The notes under the pieces were generated by a model. The model did not search any database. It was not told the DNA's origin and was given only the letters and a program-made list of their open reading frames with translations. From assembly GCA_907165065.1 (NCBI GenBank), contig OU015524.1, forward strand, positions 124,098,760-124,162,759: 64,000 nucleotides of DNA, in the 5' to 3' direction. Source of the DNA: Caprimulgus europaeus (lineage: Eukaryota; Chordata; Aves; Caprimulgiformes; Caprimulgidae). Position numbers and translations under genes: made by a program. This document shows, piece by piece, positions 48,801 to 51,800 of the stretch; position 1 is the first letter of the stretch; each line of letters opens with the position of its first letter.

Positions 48801-51800
48801 GGGCTTAATCCATCTCCCCTGTCTTTGCTGGGAGCACTGGGCACCACTTGGCACTAGCTGTAGGTGCTGGAGAGGACAAGCTCCCACACATGGGAGAAGG
48901 CAGGAGGGAGCTGGAGCTGGAGGAGATGGCAGGAGTCCCACAGCTGGGCATTGCTGGAGGGAGATACCAGAGGAGGTTGGTTAAGGAAGCTGTAAGTCCT
49001 CTTCCTCTCACCTGTAGGACTCCCTGGTGCTTCTAGAGATGTGTTGGGCTTGTGGTTGCCTTTCTCTGCCACTGTCCACCAGCCTTTGCACCTTGAAGTT
49101 GTGCCCTGTGAGGAACCTGGCTTCTGGCTCTTCCTCCACCTGCTCCCACCAGAGCTGCTTTCTCCATCACCAGAATTCCCAACCAAGCTGATGTGACCGG
49201 GAAACCCCAGGTTGCTGCACACAAAAGGCCATGGTGGGAATATCTTGGAGTCTCTGAACCTGGTGGAGTGCTAAGAAGGACTTTGGTGCCCATTTCTAGG
49301 GGAGGACAGCCCTGCTGAGTAAGGTGGGAAGAAACCAAGAAGACAGTTGGACTCAAGGTTATTTTGCAGATCCTATTTTAGCTACAGATCTACCAAAGAC
49401 CAAGCCTGGGCTGTTCCTTTGAGCCTTTGGCTTGGACATGGCAGAGGTTGAGAGCAGAGGGAGGTAAAGCTCTCCTTGCTGCTCTGCTCACCCTGATCTG
49501 AGCTCACCTGCAGATCCTCCTCATGTCCTTGCCCTCATGATCCCTCAGATAAGATCCCTGTGAGCAGTTCCCTGGTGTCTCAGTGCCTGGCCCTGGTTTC
49601 TGGCAGTGTCACCCTGTTCCCTCCTGCTCCTGTGCCTCACCTCCTTGTCTCCCTTCCTCCTGCCAGATATGAGCTTAGAGTGATAGTGTGGAACACAGAC
49701 GAGGTCATCCTGGAGGACGATGACTACTTCACTGGGGAGAAATCCAGTGACATTTTTGTCAGGGGGTAGGTACAGTGTGACATGCCAGCGTCACCTCCTC
49801 TGCTTCTCCATGGGTGAGGGGGTGCCAGTGCTCACTGGGGTCCCTTGGGGTGGTTTTTGAAGTGGGGAGGTGGGTAGGACATGGAGTGTGGTGGAAGGTC
49901 AGACAGTGCCAATGCTGCTGTTGTCTTGTGTGCTGTGTTTCTTGCTTTCTCCATCTCTCTGGTGGCTGCATGACCCACTGGGTGTGCCTGGCCTGGCTGC
50001 CCAGCTTTGAGCTGCGGGTTGTGGTCTGGAACACCGATGAGGTGGTGTTGGAAGATGATGCTTTCCTGGTGGGAGAGAAGATGTCTGACATCTATGTCAG
50101 GGGGTAATGGTTGAGGCCTCACTGCTTGGTCCCATCTGCTCCTCTCCCTCTTTTCATGCTTGTCTTGGTGCCCCTATATGTCATTTCAGCCCTGAAACCA
50201 CCAATTCCAGCATCTGGAGCCACACTGTGGTTAGTTCCCATCTCCACTTCACGCTCACCCAGCAGCAGGAGAAAGCCCCTTCCACAACTTAGAGTCATGG
50301 AATGGTTTGGGTTGGAATAGACATTTAAAGCTCATCTAGTCCAGCCCCCTGCAGTGAGCAGGGACATCTTCAACCAGACCAGCAGAGCCCTGTCCAACCT
50401 GACCTTGAATGTTTCCAGGGATGGGGCTTCTACCACCTCTCTGGGCAACCTGGGCCAGGGTCTCACCACCCTCAGTGTAAACAATTTCTTCCTTCTCTCC
50501 AGTCTGAATCTCCCTTCTTGGAGTTTCCAACCATCACCCCTTGTCCTGTCACTCCCTGCCCTTGGCCAAAGTCCCTCCCCAGCCTTCCTGGAGCCCCTTC
50601 AGGTACTGGGAGGCCACTGGAAGGTCTCCCTGGAGCCTTCTCTTCTCCAGGCTGAGCAGCCCCAACTCTCTCAGCCTGTCCTCACAGCAGAGCTGCTCCA
50701 GCCCTGGCATCATCCTCGTGGCCTCCTCTGGGCTGGCTCCAGTAGCTCCATGTCCTTGTGCTGTTGGTGGCCCCAGCACTGGAGGCAGCACTGCAGGGGG
50801 GGTCTCAGGAGAGCGGAGCAGAGGGGCAGAATCCCCTCCCTGGCCCTGCTGCCCACGCTGCTCTGGGTGCAGCCCAGGACACGGTTATTGGCCTCTTGGC
50901 TTCAAGGTCCCATCAGTCCAGTGGTTTTTCTACAGTGGCTCAGGATCTGAGATTCTCCAGCCCTTCCCCATCTGTGTGGTGGAGAAATTTCTTGACCTTT
51001 GTGATTTTTGGGGCAGAGCAGGACGTCGACATCCTCAGAGCCCGAGAGAACAACCCTGTGTGGAGTCCTGTCCCTGCTGGCTGCAGCCCCTTGGGACAGA
51101 CAGATGCAGAAAGGACCTGAGGACATCCTGGGGAATGGAGATAGCTTGGCTCATCTGATGAAGGGGCTGGGGGGCACTCACAGTCTTTAAAACAAAGACT
51201 TGCTGCCATGGGACACCTTCCACTAGACCAGGTTGCTCAAAGCTGCCATGGACCACCCTCCATGTCCCTTTTGCTCTGGGAATCTGGCTCACTGGAGCTA
51301 GAAAATTGGGGGTACAAGGATATGTGATGGCAAGGTGAGCATGGCCACCCCACCTCCCAGGGTGGCAGGACTGGGACCCCACTGTCTCCAGTGACACGAT
51401 GCTTATGGTGCCCATCTCAGCTGGAATCCCAGAATGGCCTGGGTTGGAAAATCCCTTTGAGCTCATGGAGTCCAACCATGAACCCAACACTGACCAGTCC
51501 CCCACTAACCCATGTCCCTCAGCACTGTGTCTACACCACTCTTCAATCCCTCCAGGGATGGGGACTCCACCACTGCCCTGGGCAACCCCTTCCAATGCCT
51601 CAGAACCCTTTCAGCAGAGAAATTCTTCCTCACATCCCATCTCAACTGCCCTGGCCACAACTGGAGCCCATTTCCTCTTGTCCTGTCCCTTGCTCCTTGG
51701 GAGAAGAGATTGACAAGGTCCCTTCTCTGGAGATTGGGTCAACAGAGACAACCCCACCCACAATCAGAGCCTGCAGAAGGCCCTAAATACCTCTGATGGC

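Follow-up and report, generated by a model that had tools for sequence, protein, structure and literature searches.

An exon pair in the otoferlin gene

The window analysed here, a stretch of 64,000 nucleotides from the Caprimulgus europaeus genome, carries a gene that is, by similarity, otoferlin on the + strand, because its last C2 domain matches a solved otoferlin chain and a stork otoferlin record matches across the window. Indeed, the stork record aligned in 40 tblastn stretches between 3.8 and 54.7 kb, and an eagle otoferlin record aligned in 39 stretches across the window; the closest otoferlin records are those of birds. The domain matched the solved chain at E 7e-72 when read with the exon that we call V37a, and at E 2.5e-68 when read with a second exon, V37b. 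The matching PDB entries comprised five distinct sequences (one otoferlin, one myoferlin and three dysferlins), of which the otoferlin is of V37a type; V37a is thus the version in the solved mouse structure, as it is in the one mammal among the protein matches listed.

Both exons encode the start of this last C2 domain, reported as formerly named C2F and now C2G (PMC12526402), and both are read in the same phase, with one base closing the previous codon, 32 full codons and two bases left over (Table 1). They are identical at 65 of 99 DNA positions, at 23 of 32 full codons in translation, and at 24 of 33 residues when the split Gly is included. The two bases AA left by the upstream exon become AAA (Lys) when joined to V37a and AAC (Asn) when joined to V37b. 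The exon comparison therefore bears out the initial annotation, which had described a same-phase pair of 99-nt exons, 239 nt apart and 24/33 identical, with a Lys to Asn change at the junction, and its proposal that the last C2 domain has a loop 1 of two kinds is likewise supported. The downstream exon has the length given for mouse exon 43 of NM_031875 (PMC10751786).

Table 1. Positions of the exon pair and its neighbours within the window
Feature	Position	Strand	Description	Basis
Upstream constitutive exon	47811..47899	+	ends ...SPRKPK plus AA	tblastn to bird otoferlins; splice sites by matrix
V37a exon	49667..49765	+	99 nt, AG/GT-flanked	
Intron between V37a and V37b	49766..50004	+	239 nt	
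V37b exon	50005..50103	+	99 nt, AG/GT-flanked; orthologues in 168/232 otoferlin records	
Downstream exon	52196..52437	+	242 nt, remainder of C2 domain with loop 3	tblastn, splice matrix

Elsewhere in the window, at 50300-61000, open-frame fragments recur many times on either strand in the manner of an interspersed repeat, and self-similar sequence amounts to about 16.7 kb of the window. At 62395-64000 on the + strand a 535-residue open reading frame runs past the window end; it has no Pfam match at E 0.01, and it may resemble the N-terminal region of the very large inducible GTPases.

Both exons appear to be under selection

A tblastn search with V37a found the V37b site at E 3e-14 and nothing else in the window below E 2, which excludes chance resemblance. 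The 33 differences in 96 codon bases fall at codon positions 1, 2 and 3 as 8, 7 and 18, an excess at third positions with P = 0.0017. When divergence was simulated at random with an equal number of changes, 35% of the trials were free of stops, and 23 of 32 residues were kept in none of 20,000. The adjoining intron sequences of the two exons showed no similarity (10/30 and 8/30 matches). Nei-Gojobori proportions were 0.91 for pS and 0.19 for pN; since synonymous sites are saturated, dN/dS can only be called low. Both exons are also conserved across the protein records described below, and together these observations indicate that both have been kept by selection.

V37b is widespread among jawed vertebrates

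Three protein searches were carried out: one with a query region (residues 1328-1372) lying mostly in the downstream exon, from which the best 120 of 1500 matches were taken; one with the V37b of the window (best 120 of 390 matches, 391 candidates); and one with a lizard-type V37b carrying a mouse flank (best 120 of 3894 matches, 3969 candidates). The 234 proteins, minus the window's own peptide and one rotifer ferlin, make up a set of 232 otoferlin records. Within it 64 records carry V37a only, 100 carry V37b only and 68 carry both, counts of records rather than reads that mix isoforms with species, are not independent, and come from searches that favoured V37b. Clustering of the records at 90% identity could hide minor isoforms, and the underlying database models may rest on prediction.

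Carriers of V37b include the sharks Chiloscyllium and Scyliorhinus, the sturgeon Acipenser, the bichir Polypterus and many teleosts, and among tetrapods frogs, salamanders, the lizards Anolis and Phrynosoma, the turtle Chelonia and the eagle Aquila. The initial annotation had named broken V37b frames in related species as one half of its refuting condition; that half fails, as the exon is intact and conserved in many other species. Scyliorhinus, Acipenser and Ciconia have exactly the V37a peptide found in the window.

Four sites show no residue overlap between the 132 V37a and 168 V37b segments. V37a has Asp at site 19, Phe at 21, Ser at 26 and Phe at 30, and the corresponding V37b residues are Ala (167, with Gly in 1), Met (148) or Leu (20), Met (167, with Val in 1) and Tyr (168). 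In a tree of 42 rows and 33 columns the two versions lie on opposite sides of a single branch with support 89/98, the bootstrap being unsettled. Because each version groups on its own, the duplication that gave rise to the pair predates the split of sharks and bony fishes.

Mammals stand apart in this survey. No V37b from a mammal appeared among the best 120 of 3894 matches to the mammal-flanked query, and the one mammal among those 120, a hamster, is a V37a record. A loss of V37b in mammals is therefore likely on this sampling.

The same records differ at their C termini. Beside the two known endings (exons 47 and 48), some fish and amphibian otoferlins have a third transmembrane ending (...SLP/MPS..S.KIFN..G type). 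One of the known endings, YFxW..YRW, occurs in 13 V37a-only records, from turtles and a crocodile, and in no bird record fetched; birds may have lost it. In the window, YLIC.RYKW (53280-54661) is the only transmembrane exon found by pattern. The idea that V37b is tied to one of the endings was unsupported, as V37b records carry all three and the models do not phase exons.

Other ferlins of the same genome

This genome contains five further ferlin-like loci, named here by similarity as FER1L6-, FER1L4-, myoferlin-, dysferlin- and FER1L5-like, and each has one full exon copy between matching neighbours. Extra matches in the five 9.9-kb ferlin-like stretches (E up to 1) were of at most 22 residues with E of at least 0.014; two of them, 13 and 9 residues long and obtained with the myoferlin and dysferlin queries, fall in the stretch that separates the exon from its neighbour at the dysferlin-like locus. 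Since a single copy is found at each of the five, the V37a/V37b pair appears to be specific to otoferlin in this genome. Ferlin family growth has been placed between jawless vertebrates and cartilaginous fishes (PMC2923515), a timing that fits an origin of the pair in early jawed vertebrates.

We also considered whether V37b might be a retained old ferlin form, as GEKMSDIY is common to it and dysferlin. The comparison with the ferlin-like loci rejected this. The FER1L6-like exon is 72.7% identical to V37a and 57.6% to V37b, and at the four separating sites it is V37a-like at two, V37b-like at one and like neither at one. Similarly, the FER1L4-like exon is closer to V37a (68.8% versus 56.3%). 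The dysferlin-like exon matches the two equally, and the FER1L5-like exon is closer to V37b (63.6% versus 51.5%).

Loop 1 keeps its ligands and changes its tip

The structural reading below uses mouse otoferlin numbering as in PMC12526402, which the mouse loop sequence fits. In the membrane-bound mouse structure the loop-1 Ca2+ ligands are E1742, D1743 and D1754, while the residues inserted in or close to the membrane include F1746 and F1747 (PMC12526402). V37b segments keep the three ligand sites in 167, 168 and 168 of 168 cases, with one Gln at the first, and all three are present in the window's own V37b. Phe is likewise found at the F1746 site in 168/168. The changes that V37b does bring are D1745 to Ala, F1747 to Met or Leu, S1752 to Met and F1756 to Tyr. 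With Met or Leu at the F1747 site throughout, none of the 168 segments has the full aromatic tip F1746+F1747, which is a feature of the V37a form. The loop tip thus reads as an Asp followed by two aromatics (D-Y/F-F) in V37a versus Ala-Phe-Met/Leu in V37b, and in this bird the V37b tip, A-F-L-V, is still more apolar.

We infer that V37b retains Ca2+ binding and presents a membrane-touching tip that is less acidic and less aromatic. Because the named ligands are kept and D1745, the third Asp, is not one of them, the predicted change is in the membrane tip rather than in Ca2+ coordination. Of the two effects that the initial annotation had offered, altered Ca2+ affinity or altered membrane insertion, the change at the tip is thus the part predicted here, whereas the loop-1 Ca2+ ligands stay in place.

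Splicing signals and alternative readings

We think it probable that V37a and V37b arose by tandem duplication and serve as alternative exons of otoferlin, a pair older than the parting of sharks and bony fishes, whose isoforms keep the loop-1 Ca2+ ligands and differ at the membrane tip. Splicing would use V37a, V37b or, in some lineages, both. The resulting otoferlins would share their loop-1 Ca2+ ligands and differ at the part of the loop that touches the membrane; the likely effect is an altered strength or Ca2+ dependence of membrane insertion, which could in turn tune vesicle fusion differently in some hair cells, neurons or stages.

There is practically no chance that the second exon is an assembly artefact or a chance pseudo-exon, given the dissimilar introns, the saturated third positions and the orthologues in many lineages; moreover, a search of the bird's own 1.18-Gb genome placed each copy just once, inside the window. 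That V37b is instead a low-affinity or Ca2+-blind version, through loss of the third Asp, would agree with the near-invariant replacement at site 19. We hold this to be quite unlikely, as D1745 is not a named loop-1 ligand, the three named ones are kept, and an Asp is likewise absent from this position at the FER1L6-, FER1L4-, myoferlin- and dysferlin-like loci. V37b might also be mainly an optional in-frame cassette, with V37a kept and V37b, when included, adding 33 residues that repeat a strand-loop-strand unit, so that one copy would be part of the fold and the second would serve as a linker. Indeed, both exons stand in tandem in 68 of the 168 V37b-bearing records, notably those of teleosts, and several of the 68 are RefSeq isoforms that a single fish species contributes; in Channa argus, for example, nine isoforms have both exons and two have V37b alone. 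The frame is kept either way, as the initial annotation had pointed out for inclusion of both, and the 239-nt intron forbids nothing. Some tandem models, however, are the product of gene prediction only, a procedure that would join the two exons, and the other 100 V37b-bearing records lack V37a. In these, V37b is preceded by Ser in 86 records, by Asn in 10, by Arg in 3 and by Lys in 1; Ser or Asn, the residue in 96 of them, is what direct joining of V37b to the upstream exon is expected to give. A cassette as the main use is accordingly unlikely.

The tandem pair in alternative use must also be weighed, for this bird, against a V37b that was once useful and is now a fading relic, rarely or never spliced in. 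Scored with simple matrices, its acceptor is the 5th weakest of 41 and its donor the 8th weakest of 39, against 35th and 16th for V37a, in a ranking that flatters the other exon borders, chosen as the best site within 14 nt. In the window's V37b, Val occupies site 7, which is Ile in the 168 other segments, and site 22, which is Thr or Ala in them, and among the bird records fetched V37b occurs besides the window in the eagle only, compared with V37a-only records from many birds. Against this, V37b here has an intact frame and splice dinucleotides and keeps all four distinguishing residues, the eagle model includes the exon, and the 90% clustering hides minor isoforms, all of which makes the relic very unlikely. 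Upstream of the V37b acceptor, 96 nt are free of AG. Among the 37 otoferlin acceptors checked this zone ranks second in length, and we treat it as a lead only since the longest, of 112 nt, belongs to a different exon (acceptor at window position 26294). A TGCATG at 49967, 38 nt upstream of V37b, is a possible Rbfox-type site. The weak sites, the AG-free zone and this motif fit regulated use, and equally a fading exon.

Relation to known systems and significance

Adjacent homologous exons of the same phase that swap part of a domain are familiar from AMPA-receptor flip/flop and from tropomyosin; the otoferlin pair differs in that models often include both exons in tandem. Within otoferlin itself, the known splice choices listed in PMC10394277 are exons 6 and 31, the transmembrane choice of exon 47/48 and a short form from exon 6b. 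These resemble our pair as alternative exons of the same gene, and the exon 47/48 choice is of the either-or kind, linked to brain versus cochlea; the exons in that list are others, with no homologous pair inside a C2 domain and V37b absent. A long-read mouse study describes a short otoferlin form, and the excerpted text does not mention the V37a/V37b site (PMC10227054). In sturgeon, an Otof variant that either includes or omits exons 6-10 also gives isoforms that differ between sense organs, but it lies near the N terminus rather than in the last C2 domain, and we rejected this electroreceptor variant as an instance of the pair because other exons are involved (PMC13069148). Dysferlin, too, has alternative exons (exon 1 of C2A and exon 40a), which in the excerpted accounts are no homologous pair in the last C2 domain (PMC2923515, PMC7140416).

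Our searches of the open-access literature (open-licence PubMed Central) found no description of the V37a/V37b pair. The initial annotation's remark that such a pair had not been described thus holds for the papers searched and not for databases, where automatic annotation and isoform models already carry the V37b exon. Such exon pairs are known as a kind; what would interest specialists is the present case, with its age and its location in the Ca2+ sensor of hearing.

Otoferlin, a target of gene therapy, has been proposed as the Ca2+ sensor for vesicle fusion in hair cells. Mice with D1841/1842A are reported to show no Ca2+-triggered exocytosis and no auditory brainstem responses, making the last C2 domain essential (PMC10751786). 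More tentatively, and in our view less likely than not, an exon switch predating the shark/bony-fish split may set the membrane insertion of this domain, with non-mammals tuning different hair-cell or neuron synapses by it and mammals having lost it; if so, work in mouse and human would have met just one setting of the otoferlin sensor. For hair-cell work in fish, frog and chick, a cDNA of one form may not represent the protein present. A second, naturally occurring loop 1 that has been retained from before the shark/bony-fish split would offer a ready experiment on the role of this loop.
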